Of a DNA stretch of 64,000 nt, positions 9,447 to 64,000 are shown piece after piece. The DNA is taken from positions 1 to 64,000 of the IMG/VR virus record IMGVR_UViG_3300035034_000779. One strand, 5' to 3'. The notes below the pieces were generated by a model, which did not search any database, was not told the origin of the DNA, and saw only the letters and a list, made by a program, of their open reading frames with translations. Made by a program: the position numbers and the translations under genes. The stretch is from a virus. Each line of letters starts with the position of its first letter. The first letter of the stretch is position 1.

Positions 9447-10410
9447 TTTTATTCCATTTTGTTGTGTTTAGATCAGCTGCACAATTACACCATTGTTTAG
9501 CACAAATAATTGGATTATTTGGAATTTTAAAATCTTCACTTATGTTTCCAATCGGACCACCTTGTTTGCAAGTTGCCCTAAAAATATTTCCATCATTCTC
9601 TATATACAATGTTTCAATTCCTGCCATGCATTTCCATCCTACAAAAGAATTTTGCCTATTCTTTAATAACGTGTTTACATTATCAAACCAACTAGATTCT
9701 GTTGTAAAAAATTCAGCATTATCTTGACTTGTACCTGCTTTTGAAAAGGTATCTAAATATTCTAACTCTTCTTGAGAATAATAACCATCAGGTGATTGTT
9801 TTGAATGTATTCCTTCCATTCCACTTGAGCCAGGAAGATTAAATCCACCAACTGGTGTAAATAAAGGTCTGATCCTTCTTATGTTATATCTAATTCCGTT
9901 ATCTTCTAACCAACTAACCGTATTTTTAATCTCTTCTAAACGTCCAGGTAAAAACATAAGATGTACATGTATTGGTCGATCCTTTAATCCATATAAAACA
10001 TTCCTCATATGTTCTTCTTTTAAATGTTCATAATGCCAACTAAAAATTAAATGATCAAGATGTTCAAAAGAGGCTTCATATTTTACTAATGGTAAACTAC
10101 CATTAGTAATAGTAGAAACTTCATCTATATTATATTTTGAAAACAAAGAAAGTATTTCAAGAATGCGAGGATGCACAAATGGTTCTCCACCTGTTATACT
10201 CATTCTTACTTTTTTATCAATATATGATTCTCTTATTTTTTGAATAGTATTGTCAAAGCTTTTTAGATCTGCGTGACCGCTTGAATTGTCATGTAGATCA
10301 GGTGGGCAATAACTACAATCAAAGTTACATCTTTTACCAAGATTCCATTCTACACGAACCCATTCTTTATATTTCTTATCAATATGCTCAATTCGAACTA
10401 ATTCTGTCAT
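9439..10410 (-). CDS. radical SAM enzyme with C-terminal Cys-rich (SPASM-like) region
   Basis: 323 aa. CNFDCSYC (C28, C32, C35) followed by PPDLHDNSSGH closely resembles the 16078-17061 protein (CTNSCSYC, PEDLHTGKNHH). ITGGEP is the SAM motif. The C-terminal region GWKCMAGIETLYIENDG, ATCKQGGPIGNI and CAKQWCNC carries five or six cysteines in a SPASM-like pattern, expected to hold auxiliary Fe-S clusters. The gene follows a twitch-type radical SAM gene with an ATGA overlap, the second case of the repeated two-gene unit. Substrate unknown. Confidence 0.87.
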   Translation of the reverse strand: MTELVRIEHIDKKYKEWVRVEWNLGKRCNFDCSYCPPDLHDNSSGHADLKSFDNTIQKIRESYIDKKVRMSITGGEPFVHPRILEILSLFSKYNIDEVSTITNGSLPLVKYEASFEHLDHLIFSWHYEHLKEEHMRNVLYGLKDRPIHVHLMFLPGRLEEIKNTVSWLEDNGIRYNIRRIRPLFTPVGGFNLPGSSGMEGIHSKQSPDGYYSQEELEYLDTFSKAGTSQDNAEFFTTESSWFDNVNTLLKNRQNSFVGWKCMAGIETLYIENDGNIFRATCKQGGPIGNISEDFKIPNNPIICAKQWCNCAADLNTTKWNKNG

Positions 10411-11795
10411 ATATACTTTCGTAGATCTGGAAAGATCTCCCCACTGTCTAATCCTCTACTTTGGTCTATTAATTTTAACCATTCTTGTAATTCAGGAACA
10501 CGTTCGCTCCAATCTTCACTTTGCATAAAATTAATAATTCCTTTATATCTTTTTATTCCATACGGAGCATCTTTCCATTGATCGTATGAAACATCCTCAA
10601 CACCTGTAGATTTTTGCCAGTTATCTTCAAGCCAAGGATAGAATTCATTCTCATATTTTTTTTGTACCCAATTCTTATAATCTTTTGGTAATGTTTTTAC
10701 ATTAAGTTGAGGTGGCCAGTATGCGAAGTGCATATTAATCAATCCCGCACCAAATGGCCACTTATTAATTTTTTTAAATCCTTGTTCAACTTTCCATTTA
10801 ACTAATTCGGGCAAATATCCAACGTTTAATGCCATCACCGTTGTTGCAGTTGTTATCTCTACATTGTCAGTAGTTTGGTCAAGTTGCCAAAATATCTTTT
10901 CTTGATGTTCCCATTTTGAAGGGAATCTAATATAATCATTTTGTTTTCCATATGCATCAATAGAATAATGAAATCTTACTCGTTTAAATTCTGCCCATAG
11001 ATCAAAAAGGTCATCTCTCCATTCTACTGCATTTGAATTATAGCGTAGTTCAATATCTTTAGCATATCCACGTTTTATACATTCTTCAAGTAACTCATAA
11101 TGTTCGTCTATAATGAGGCTTTCGCCTCCGGCAAAATACAATTGGTACATATGTGGTATTTGATCCATAAGTTCATTCCAGAACCTTGGGTTATTTTTAT
11201 GCCAGTTGTAACTTGCTCCGTTATTACGACCTTTGTTTTCCCACTTACTTGTATTCTTTAATCGTTCATTTTGTATTTGCGGATGTATAGTTTGCCATTC
11301 CTTAATCCAACCTGAGCTATCATGTGGTGAACACATCACACAAGCCAATTGACATTTAGATCCTAATCTCAAATCGATATAACGTATTTTTGTTGGCAAA
11401 GATCCATCTTCATTTGTAGAATTAACTAACTCATCTACACTGTATCTCTTTTCCCAATATGCTGTTTCCCAATTACGCTTTGAAAGATGTCCAGATTCTT
11501 CTTCTTTATAACACTTTAAACATGGTGCAGGTTTTTCTCCACGCAACATTGTTTTTCGAACGTTTCTCATGTATTCTGAATTCCATGCTTCTTCTAGAGT
11601 AGTATGATTAAAATTAGCTGGTATTCCTGCATCGGTTTTAACTACGCCTACTTCTCCCCCTCCTATTTTTTTATTTGAATCTGGATCTTGAACCGATGAT
11701 GCGTTACTGGTACAACAAGTTCGCATCTTTCCGTCTGGTCGAGAAGAAAGGTGTATCCACGGAAGGATACAAAATGTATTAGATGGTAATGTCAT
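10407..11795 (-). CDS. twitch-type radical SAM enzyme (longest of the set)
   Basis: 462 aa. Twitch cysteines C9, C27-C28 and PCLKCYKEE near residue 100; radical SAM motif CQLACVMC near residue 155 followed by SPHDSS; then FAGGES, in which the usual Glu-Pro is Glu-Ser. An insert after the first Cys pair (SVQDPDSNKKIGGGEV) makes it longer than its relatives. The phrases YIRFPSKWEHQ and NKWPFGAGLINMHFAYWPP align with the 17058 and 18418 proteins. It is separated from the upstream gene by 8 nt, one of the few junctions here without overlap, and it overlaps the SPASM-like partner downstream by 4 nt. Confidence 0.88.
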   Translation of the reverse strand: MTLPSNTFCILPWIHLSSRPDGKMRTCCTSNASSVQDPDSNKKIGGGEVGVVKTDAGIPANFNHTTLEEAWNSEYMRNVRKTMLRGEKPAPCLKCYKEEESGHLSKRNWETAYWEKRYSVDELVNSTNEDGSLPTKIRYIDLRLGSKCQLACVMCSPHDSSGWIKEWQTIHPQIQNERLKNTSKWENKGRNNGASYNWHKNNPRFWNELMDQIPHMYQLYFAGGESLIIDEHYELLEECIKRGYAKDIELRYNSNAVEWRDDLFDLWAEFKRVRFHYSIDAYGKQNDYIRFPSKWEHQEKIFWQLDQTTDNVEITTATTVMALNVGYLPELVKWKVEQGFKKINKWPFGAGLINMHFAYWPPQLNVKTLPKDYKNWVQKKYENEFYPWLEDNWQKSTGVEDVSYDQWKDAPYGIKRYKGIINFMQSEDWSERVPELQEWLKLIDQSRGLDSGEIFPDLRKYI

Positions 11796-25416: not shown

Positions 25417-26898
25417 TTATACCTTTAATACACACTCAACTAATTTAACACCATCGTCGTAGTTTGACTCAAGTGCAATACCAATTAAGTATGATGCTTT
25501 ATTTACTGTAGCGATGCCTGAATGACTAGCATAAATGGGTTGCCCTTTGTTTACTGCGCCGGAAATTTTAACCGGAACACGTCCAACAAGTGCAATATAT
25601 TGCCCTTCTGCCTCACTATTCAACATCATTGCTGGATTTGTCGACACAACACCCACTGGCATATGCAAACCACACGCTTCGCAAACTTCATGATCTGTAT
25701 GATCACTGTGTGAGCAAACTTCAACAACTGTACCTGGTTCGAGGTTACCATTTGTAAGATATTTTTCTGCCAAGTCTGCATAGCGAGCAGATGTTGCAAC
25801 ACCCTGAAAAAGATTAGCTGCTATATTTCCGGATGCTGTACGAACTGCAACCGTATTTGCTGTTGCGCTAGTATCACCCGAACGATAATTACTACCTTCT
25901 TTTAATGTATCTGCTTGAGTTGCTGCGCCATCAAATACGTCAGCATAAACCGTAGCATACTTTATACCACTTGTACCTAAATTAAATGTAGAATCAGCCG
26001 AAGGATTCATTCCTGTTGCGGTAACTGTTAATGAATGAGTTAATGTTCCTCCTGAATTATTGGCTTTTAGCTTGATAATGTTAGAAGCACCAACAGTATT
26101 TGATATATAACCTTCATTTCCGTTTTCAATACCAATCTTAAGATCTTGTGAATCACCAATTGTAATTCCAGAATCCGCAAAATTAACGATTGCTGAGAAA
26201 TTTGCAGTATTTGCCAAAACATAATCACTTGCTAATGCACCACCTAATCTTAGTGCATTTGAGCTTGTTCCCCAATATACATGATCGGTTGTTGTAACAC
26301 CATTTGTTGCTGCTTTTGTATTCTTTAAGGTTAACCCTTTTTTAATTACATCAAAACCATCTATCTCTGTTGGATCACCAGGTTTTGATGTGAATTCGTC
26401 TGCTGAAATAACCTGGATAACTTCATCATCAACAACAGAAACAATAACAGAATGATTAACATTAAGTGTATCTTTGATATTTCTCGATTGTATTTGGGTT
26501 ACGCCGTCTCCTGCTGTTTGTGGTCCAATTAGGACAAATGCAGTTCCGTTGTAAACATAAAGTTGATCATTTCCTGTGTCCCACCAAAAATCACCGGTTG
26601 TTAATCCAGTTGGTTCAGAGGTTGAAATTTCAGAACCTCCAGTAGTACGGAATTTATTTCCATCATAAAATTTTAGTTTATTTGCTGAACTATCAAACCA
26701 AACCTGTCCAGAAACTGCCCTTGGTGGCTGATTTGCTCCTGAAAAGTTTTCAAGTAAGAATAAGAAATTTTCATTCTGTATCTCACCATAGCCTGCATAA
26801 TTCTTTCCAACAAGCTTTATGTCGGTTGTTTGATCAATTGTTCCATCTTCAACCGTAGTAATTAGTGTATTATCGTATCTATTAACCTGATATGCCAT
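25417..26898 (-). CDS. tail fibre-like protein with Cys/His-rich C-terminal insert
   Basis: 493 aa. Residues 1-85 carry the N-terminal module shared with the next two fibre genes (LVGKNYAGYGEIQNENFLFLLENF, then GQVWFDSSANKLKFYDG), followed by a second short repeat (GDFWWDTGNDQLYVYNG). The C-terminal part has SARYADLAEKYLTNG and PVGVVSTNPAMMLNSEAEG, a tail-end domain frequent in marine phage fibres. Between these, residues about 393-412 form VCSHSDHTDHEVCEACGLH, with three Cys and several His that could bind zinc. It probably contributes to host attachment. Confidence 0.72.
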   Translation of the reverse strand: MAYQVNRYDNTLITTVEDGTIDQTTDIKLVGKNYAGYGEIQNENFLFLLENFSGANQPPRAVSGQVWFDSSANKLKFYDGNKFRTTGGSEISTSEPTGLTTGDFWWDTGNDQLYVYNGTAFVLIGPQTAGDGVTQIQSRNIKDTLNVNHSVIVSVVDDEVIQVISADEFTSKPGDPTEIDGFDVIKKGLTLKNTKAATNGVTTTDHVYWGTSSNALRLGGALASDYVLANTANFSAIVNFADSGITIGDSQDLKIGIENGNEGYISNTVGASNIIKLKANNSGGTLTHSLTVTATGMNPSADSTFNLGTSGIKYATVYADVFDGAATQADTLKEGSNYRSGDTSATANTVAVRTASGNIAANLFQGVATSARYADLAEKYLTNGNLEPGTVVEVCSHSDHTDHEVCEACGLHMPVGVVSTNPAMMLNSEAEGQYIALVGRVPVKISGAVNKGQPIYASHSGIATVNKASYLIGIALESNYDDGVKLVECVLKV

Positions 26899-61939: not shown

Positions 61940-61944
61940 ATCAA

Positions 61945-62275
61945 GGCAGTAAAGGCGTTTGGGCAATTAAGGCTTTAAAATACGAACCCTATTGGTGAAA
62001 GCCCTCCTTGAGGTTATGGTTAGTCCATTGCCGGATACTGGAGTTGTTCGAAGGATAAAGCTAACTTAAGGCTCAAACGACGTAGGCGCTGCGAAACAGA
62101 TGCAACCTACACGGTAAGTAATTTGGATTGGTACGGATATTACTGCCGCCCGTTGACACGCGAAGCTAGAGTAGGGAGTACAGGTCAACCGCTTCCACTG
62201 CAAAAGGCAACTTGCAAATCTCTTTTACCAAGAATGGTGTACGACTCACAGAAAAGATTCGAAGCGCTTTTTTTT
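61945..62275 (+). ncRNA. candidate structured non-coding RNA
   Basis: No credible gene lies in 61940-62535. On the plus strand the region tiles into helices: GGCTTT/AAAGCC (61971-61976/61998-62003), CCTC/GAGG (62003-62013), GTAGG/CCTAC with inner TGC/GCA (62082-62110), a 10-bp stem with one bulge (62112-62122/62139-62148), GTTGAC/GTCAAC (62152-62157/62184-62189), and CGCTTC/GAAGCG (62190-62195/62261-62266) enclosing an 8-bp stem with a 2-nt bulge (62217-62226/62252-62259). Eight T follow at 62268-62275, a plausible 3' end. It is more GC-rich than its surroundings. I found no tmRNA, RNase P, group I/II intron or tRNA signature. GOLLD or ROOL classes remain to be tested. Confidence 0.5.
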
Positions 62276-62301
62276 ATACTTCGCCCGTAAGGGCGAAGTA
62301 T
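62276..62301 (+). other. perfect 11-bp hairpin with GUAA loop
   Basis: ATACTTCGCCC and GGGCGAAGTAT pair without mismatch around GTAA, a GNRA tetraloop typical of stable RNA. It directly follows the T8 run at the end of the candidate RNA. It is not a terminator on either strand because no U-run follows it. It may be the first helix of a second domain or a protecting stem if transcription reads on. Confidence 0.55.
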
Positions 62302-62331
62302 GACCGGATCTACAGAAATCATCTCGCGCTA

Positions 62332-62428
62332 ACAGTTAATCACATAAGAGAGATTAATAAAGCTAATTACTTAAGAGAAATTAGTGTGCGAGCGCAAGCG
62401 AAGCACTGGCGCGTGCGCCACTAACTGT
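62332..62428 (+). other. second structured domain in the gene-free region
   Basis: ACAGTTA at 62332-62338 pairs with TAACTGT at 62422-62428 and closes a region that holds CTAATT/AATTAG (62363-62368/62379-62384), GTGC/GCAC around 62385-62405 and TGGCGC/GCGCCA (62407-62420). An alternative, TTAGTG/CACTAA (62381-62386/62419-62424), competes with two of these. This could be a switch or a multi-branch junction. The function is unknown. Confidence 0.4.
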
Positions 62429-62502
62429 ATATCATTATGTTGCACACAACTCTAGAAAGAATTAAAATATCTGATTGTAATACTTCTTTGTAAGTTCTAT
62501 AT

Positions 62503-62510
62503 GATAAATA
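62503..62510 (+). promoter_or_regulatory. late-promoter-like octamer GATAAATA
   Basis: GATAAATA on the plus strand, 33-26 nt before ATG 62536, with CGGAGA as ribosome binding site. It is identical to the minus-strand element at 26923 and separates the following gene from the early or middle genes upstream. Confidence 0.5.
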
Positions 62511-62535
62511 AAAGCAACTTACGGAGACCCTATCT

Positions 62536-63349: not shown

Positions 63350-63392
63350 AAAAAAGTGGACTGCTTAGAAAAAAGGCAGTCCACTTTTTTTT
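63350..63392. terminator. bidirectional intrinsic terminator
   Basis: A run of A at 63350-63355, the perfect 9-bp stem GTGGACTGC (63356-63364)/GCAGTCCAC (63376-63384) and eight T at 63385-63392. Flanking A and T runs allow termination in both directions. It stops the plus-strand gene ending at 63339, and the stop codon of the minus-strand gp26-like frameshift extension (63365-63367) lies in its loop. Confidence 0.9.
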
Positions 63393-63610
63393 GTGGTTTC
63401 GAAATTTTCTTCAACTATTTTCATAATTATTTGACGATCTGTTATATCCATAGCCCATGCTTCTTCCATAGAAACAGAACCCCTCATATACCAACATAAT
63501 TTATACAATTCATGTTTGAGTTGCTTGGACTGTTGTTCAAGGTTAGTAACCTCTTGTAAGATCCGGTCGACAGTCCAACTCAGGATCTTGATACGAAAAA
63601 ATTTGAAGCA
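63365..63610 (-). CDS. gp26: -1 frame extension of the gp26-like gene (frameshift product C-terminus)
   Basis: An open frame of about 81 codons with no upstream ATG; the first Met is 44 codons in. It is entered from the 63580-64000 gene by a -1 slip at 63595-63604. The peptide has ILQEVTNLEQQSKQL (helical), ELYKLCWYMRGSVSMEEAW and NFETTKKSGLPFF, a conserved-looking C-terminus of gp26-like or tail-chaperone proteins. The frame closes upstream at a TGA at 63611-63613, so the two frames overlap by only 28 nt, and the slip site lies within it. Without the shift this coding-like stretch would be unread. Confidence 0.7.
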   Translation of the reverse strand, partial: CFKFFRIKILSWTVDRILQEVTNLEQQSKQLKHELYKLCWYMRGSVSMEEAWAMDITDRQIIMKIVEENFETTKKSGLPFF

Positions 63611-64000
63611 TCAAACGATATAGGAACTTCAAATGTATCAGGAGCTCCTGCTGTTCTTTCTTCGTCAGATGTAGTTACTGTCAATGGTTTAATTGAAAAA
63701 TTTTCTTTTTGCTTTTCTAAATGATCAGTTACGGCTGTATAGAGCCCGCTATCCGCGTTTGAAATAAATTCAGATATAAAAGCAGTATCGCTTACAACTT
63801 CTCCATCAACTTCAATTTTGTATATACCTTGAGTAACCGCAGCTACCGTAAGATCAGTTAATTTAGCAAAACTTTGTTGAAATTTTACCAATTTATCCTC
63901 TTCGGTTAAATTATCATTGTTTACCATTGCAATGATACGTTGTTCTTCAAAGGTTTTCATTGCTTGTTTAGTAAATTCTTGGTAAGTTAACGGACGAATG
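63580..64000 (-). CDS. gp26: gp26-like baseplate hub protein/chaperone (partial at right edge)
   Basis: The frame runs in from beyond the right edge without a stop, so the ATG at 63960 is internal and the gene is incomplete. IRPLTYQEFTKQAMKTFEEQR, followed by FEVPISFDASNFF, fits the T4 gp26 family (T4_baseplate, PF12322). In T4 gp26 is a hub assembly protein of 208 aa. In frame 0 the protein would end soon after SNFF (VSRS stop), lacking the C-terminal part found in the -1 frame. A short and a long product are expected. Confidence 0.72.
   Translation of the reverse strand, partial: IRPLTYQEFTKQAMKTFEEQRIIAMVNNDNLTEEDKLVKFQQSFAKLTDLTVAAVTQGIYKIEVDGEVVSDTAFISEFISNADSGLYTAVTDHLEKQKENFSIKPLTVTTSDEERTAGAPDTFEVPISFDASNFFVSRS
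63595..63604 (-). other. slippery site for -1 ribosomal frameshift
   Basis: In frame 0 the minus strand reads TCA AAT TTT TTC. This contains two overlapping slippery heptamers, A AAT TTT and T TTT TTC, both of the X XXY YYZ form. It lies in the 28-nt window between the TGA of the -1 frame (63611-63613) and the TGA of frame 0 (63580-63582), exactly where a programmed shift must occur. A stimulatory hairpin downstream was not clearly seen. Confidence 0.72.

Follow-up and report, generated by a model that had tools for sequence, protein, structure and literature searches.

A likely programmed -1 frameshift for short and long tail-assembly chaperones in a T4-superfamily phage

Vladimirov, Gautam and Davidson (Virology 2022, 566:9-15) reportedly identified the tail chaperone genes of T4-like phages and proposed that they undergo frameshifting, a trait said to be kept in several T4-like groups, with T4 using genes 26 and 51. 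A passage of a 2016 review describes G-T frameshifting as conserved in long-tailed phages “except T4” (PMC5009743), and a 2025 paper, citing Vladimirov et al., assigns poly-T -1 signals to the TAC-N genes of T4-like phages (PMC12846349). Literature searches for gp26 together with frameshift or gp51 returned no direct match. Frameshifting in T4-like tail chaperones is already known, and the gene described here adds another case; the breadth of the sampling, the coverage of jumbo and uncultivated clades and the statistics on a conserved downstream stem-loop may add something new.

The stretch of DNA analysed here, termed the window, comprises bases 1-64,000 of a 75,838-base IMG/VR virus record. 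In this analysis we document the layout of a frame junction in a gp26-like gene, the conservation of this layout and of an RNA stem downstream of it, and the homology to T4 gp26 and gp51. A -1 programmed frameshift most likely yields two forms of a tail-assembly chaperone, one short and one long, in this T4-superfamily phage, a reading to which we assign a probability of roughly 0.93 (Table 1).

Table 1. Features at the frame junction, in window coordinates
Feature	Position	Strand	Basis
gp26-like frame 0 (short chaperone form, TAC-N), 3' part	63580..64000	-	PF12322 and phrog_150 matches; 31 relatives in viral contigs
Slippery heptamer T_TTT_TTC, frame 0 phase	63595..63601	-	29/29 relatives, 10/12 named phages; T_TTT_TTT in the other two
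Frame-0 stop TGA	63580..63582	-	4 sense codons past the slip site
-1 frame extension, C-terminal domain of the long form (TAC-C), 76 codons + TAA	63365..63595	-	Conservation in 23 aligned loci; predicted all-helical
Candidate stimulatory stem-loop, AAGATCC (63589-63583) with GGATCTT (63564-63558)	63558..63589	-	Fold; tests across 33 loci
Possible pseudoknot stem 2, loop TGAGTTGGACTGT (63582-63570) with ACAGTCC..AACTCA (63533-63517)	63517..63582	-	Speculative; p=0.004 in the window
Putative terminator-like hairpin GTGGACTGC...GCAGTCCAC, T runs on either side	63356..63384		Read directly from the sequence

Frame 0, on the minus strand, has its start at record position 64452, beyond the window, and codes for 290 amino acids with the C-terminus ...DASNFFVSRS*. 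It matches PF12322 (E=5.7e-11; 42.9 bits, above the curated cut-off of 24.5) and phrog_150, a baseplate hub family (E=3.1e-13). The joint reads TCA AAT TTT TTC GTA TCA AGA TCC TGA. The -1 frame opens 5 codons upstream of the shift point, overlaps frame 0 by about 30 nt, runs for 76 codons beyond the shift and ends at TAA 63367-63365. It is without a sensible start of its own, the first possible one being TTG at codon 29 and the next ATG at codon 36. The sequence-only reading had described a gp26-like minus-strand frame ending at TGA 63582-63580 and a start-less -1 frame running on to 63365, with an overlap of 28 nt; its coordinates are correct, the overlap agrees with ours, and the two family matches bear out the assignment to gp26. 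The terminator-like hairpin overlaps the end of the -1 frame and sits between convergent genes.

A search of viral contigs retrieved 31 relatives, of which 29 span the joint (L003 and L013 end at the contig end). All 29 harbour an in-frame T_TTT_TTC, a frame-0 stop 1-4 codons further on and a conserved -1 frame protein of about 71-77 codons, one of them cut by the contig end. The same layout is found in the isolate genomes of 12 named phages from several groups, with T_TTT_TTC in Atu_ph07, Phosso, PA5oct, 121Q, RaK2, S-PM2, P-SSM2, Aeh1, KVP40 and phiW-14, and T_TTT_TTT instead in HTVC008M and phiM12. Across relatives and named phages the frame-0 stop follows the heptamer after 0-6 codons, the -1 frame holds a conserved domain, and every locus keeps a heptamer of the form X_XXY_YYZ in the phase of frame 0. 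Among the relatives, the codon preceding TTT TTC is AAT, GAT, ACT, AGT, GGT, CAT, CGT or TCT (log10 P = -9.3 for conservation of the wobble T under the genes' own codon usage, a value that overstates independence since the loci are related). Of the “double” slippery run A AAT TTT TTC that had been pointed out earlier, together with the suggestion to follow the slip site in homologues, the run is present and T_TTT_TTC (or T_TTT_TTT) is conserved as described; the upstream heptamer A_AAT_TTT is not, and it is evidently incidental, because the codon before TTT TTC is free in its first two positions, with T constant in the third.

The -1 frame is, to judge from its substitution pattern, protein-coding and under protein-level constraint: close pairs of loci differ mostly at its third codon positions (for example 3/1/13, 5/2/19 and 9/4/28 differences at positions 1/2/3). 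In the aligned loci the conservation of the extension starts at the shift point, and residues R1, W35, M37, R38, G39 and N64, including a WxMRG motif, are invariant in all 23. An AlphaFold2 model of the extension is all-helical with a mean pLDDT of 87.6. Neither frame 0 nor the extension matched a solved structure by sequence. A fold search with frame 0 found T4-like baseplate hub proteins in BFVD (E=2.3e-23 downwards) and nothing in the PDB, and the same search with the extension yielded no convincing match.

Downstream of the heptamer the RNA is predicted to fold. Against a null that preserves the -1 protein and samples codons as the gene itself uses them, the 80 nt past the heptamer are more stable than expected (mean MFE z -2.7, Stouffer -15.7 in 33 dereplicated loci, which are related, so that the combined figures overstate independence). 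A contiguous perfect helix, the 5' arm of which starts 4-10 nt (mostly 4-7) past the heptamer, reaches p<0.05 in 26 of these 33 loci; no significant helix was detected by this test in L006, L020, HTVC008M, 121Q, RaK2 and phiW-14. The predicted structure lies at the short spacing that is expected for -1 frameshifting, and codon choice falls far short of accounting for the strength of the stem-loop. In the window the candidate stem-loop begins at the 6th nt past the heptamer, and the region has an MFE z of -4.0; the main helix alone, at p=0.09, is not significant. The helix arms vary among clades (GGCTTTTG/CAAAAGCC, GCCTAACTAG/CTAGTTAGGC and AGGATCT/AGATCCT), and these clade-specific sequences argue for selection on pairing.

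A pseudoknot was rejected as a general feature, as it is significant in only two of 15 loci, the window (p=0.004) and PA5oct (p=0.03). Comparison with Rfam gave sub-threshold matches only. The cyanophages S-PM2 and P-SSM2 carry a Shine-Dalgarno-like GGAGGG upstream of the slip site (duplex -10.8 kcal/mol) and HTVC008M a weaker GAGGG (-6.3 kcal/mol), and a search for an internal Shine-Dalgarno stretch in the window clade found none. It is conceivable, though rather doubtful, that frameshifting in the uncultivated/jumbo clade is driven by RNA structure alone, without an upstream Shine-Dalgarno-like stimulator and in the window maybe through an H-type pseudoknot; if so, the chaperone ratio in very large phages would be set by that element.

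Elsewhere in the window, about 590 bases (61940-62530) are devoid of a convincing gene and contain GC-rich hairpins (e.g., TACTTCGCCCGTAAGGGCGAAGTA) and a long inverted repeat. This region has an MFE z of -1.9, yielded no match in Rfam or in a phage collection, and two 22-mers taken from it are without an exact match in viral contigs; it is possibly a structured RNA. Locus L002 encodes at positions 10032-11081 a very acidic, Asp/Glu-rich protein of 349 amino acids; its gene is flanked by that for the portal on one side and those for the protease and capsid on the other.

Could the -1 frame be a small gene in its own right, translated through re-initiation or coupling at the frame-0 stop, as the cyanophage “gp51” is annotated? 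Databases do list separate ORFs, and an ATG is located 1-3 codons past the shift point in S-PM2, P-SSM2, KVP40, phiM12, phiW-14, 121Q, Phosso and Atu_ph07. Yet, besides the late first start in the window, there is no start before codon 30-36 in L004, L006, L017, L022 and RaK2, and none in PA5oct. Moreover, the extension is conserved from the shift point onwards, the phase of the heptamer is kept, and T4 gp51 has both parts in one chain, which makes a separate gene very improbable.

We consider it less probable still that the frames are joined by transcriptional rather than ribosomal slippage. The phase of X_XXY_YYZ is kept, most runs end in TTC and not in more T, and a downstream stem at near-fixed spacing is a feature of ribosomal frameshifting; in favour of the transcriptional route, six T stand in a row, and seven in HTVC008M and phiM12. 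A run of six T is short for slippage by bacterial polymerases. Finally, the window stems from a metagenomic contig and the run is homopolymer-like, as would suit an assembly error or a pseudogene in which a one-base error split a single-frame gene. This explanation is refuted by 29 other contigs and 12 isolate genomes, all of which show the break at exactly this position, and its probability is negligible. Nor is the layout a product of chance, given this recurrence, the third-position bias of close pairs and the conserved wobble T.

Under ribosomal frameshifting, the preferred reading, most ribosomes would stop at 63580 and yield the 290-aa gp26-like protein (TAC-N). A minority, delayed by the stem-loop just downstream, would slip one base back on U_UUU_UUC and produce a 362-aa protein with an additional 76-aa helical domain (TAC-NC). 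By analogy to lambda gpG/gpGT, many short copies may coat the tape-measure protein, and a few long copies may recruit the tail tube subunit. The production of both proteins, their ratio and these binding roles are inferred. The gene has the build of a TAC-N/TAC-NC pair, with a short protein and a long form that has a C-terminal domain in the -1 frame. In HTVC008M the gene order is tail tube - gp26 - “gp51” - tape measure, and a similar order from tail tube to tape measure is found in phiM12, KVP40 and cyanophages, which matches lambda V-G-GT-H. The sequence-only reading had proposed a -1 programmed frameshift and a link to lambda-type tail chaperones; the former is supported by the conserved heptamer, the constraint on the -1 protein and the downstream RNA stem, and the latter by the short/long layout and the V-G-GT-H-like order in relatives. 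Its expectation that a shifted gp26 would be notable did not hold, as the arrangement is common to cyanophages, a pelagiphage, KVP40, Aeh1, phiM12, phiW-14 and several jumbo phages. The exception is T4, in which 26 and 51 are separate genes.

T4 gp26 and gp51 both match PF12322 (8.8e-64 and 3.9e-52) and phrog_150, gp51 across nearly its whole length, and on these profile matches the two proteins are homologous. The last 100 residues of gp51 match phrog_634, as does the small cyanophage “gp51”. With hhalign, T4 gp51 aligns through the shift junction onto the fusion product of seven cyanophages/vibriophages (E=1.3e-11), which argues that T4 encodes both chaperone forms as two genes, 26 (short) and 51 (long). 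The fusion profile of the window clade aligns onto the same cyanophage/vibriophage set (E=2.9e-17), and the link between this clade and T4 gp51 runs via that set, because the profile gave no direct alignment through the extension with the single T4 gp51 sequence (hhalign probability 3.7%). T4 gp26 ends in GAG TTC TTT GAG TTA CTA TAA, without a slip site. RB49 and 44RR2.8t have the two-gene form of T4, and Cr30 the frameshift form. One phrog_150 copy was found in the record of the window, which is incomplete, and one each in PA5oct, 121Q, RaK2, Atu_ph07 and Phosso; a T4-type pair of PF12322 genes was not found in the record. The data favour a history in which the frameshift persists in the relatives of T4, and T4 itself came to encode each product by a gene of its own, 26 and 51; they suggest a concrete role for two proteins that had long figured as nothing more than hub assembly factors.

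The small “gp51 baseplate hub assembly catalyst” genes of S-PM2, P-SSM2 and KVP40 (L085, L086 and L088) appear to be misannotated gp26 frameshift extensions, and where a cyanophage or jumbo-phage annotation lists a small “gp51” ORF, it should be merged with gp26. In a 2010 comparison, cyanophage gp51 was noted to reach only some 20% of its customary length (PMC3037559). Two further phages show related arrangements. In Rhodothermus phage RM378 (L084, record 25785-26465) a +1/-2 frame with an extension of similar size comes after the gp26-like gene, behind TTT TTT T; the direction of the shift may differ from -1. Salmonella phage ViI/Vi01 (L098, record about 47528) has a -1 ORF matching phrog_634 after gp26, and no classical slippery heptamer was found in phase at the end of its frame 0.

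Compared to described systems, the window gene would share with lambda gpG/gpGT the scheme of an abundant short chaperone accompanied by a less frequent long form made by frameshifting. The slippery heptamer of lambda G/GT differs, and the window gene is divergent from, rather than upstream of, its tape-measure candidate (record 64526-67159), which has a weak match to phrog_14121 “virion structural protein” (6e-05). T4 gp26 and gp51 belong to the same PF12322/phrog_150 family, and the gp51 C-terminus matches the cyanophage/vibriophage extension; in contrast to the window gene, they are two separate single-frame genes that lost the slip site. The gp26 and small “gp51” of Kyanoviridae (S-PM2, P-SSM2, HTVC008M) feature the same slip site and a -1 extension, but the latter measures 60-63 aa versus 76 in the window, and the Shine-Dalgarno-like stretch upstream of their slip site is absent from the window clade. 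Close, too, are the T4-like chaperones of Vladimirov et al. 2022, reportedly with a gp26-type TAC-N, a poly-T -1 signal, and T4 genes 26/51 as the separate-gene version, which was also derived independently here.
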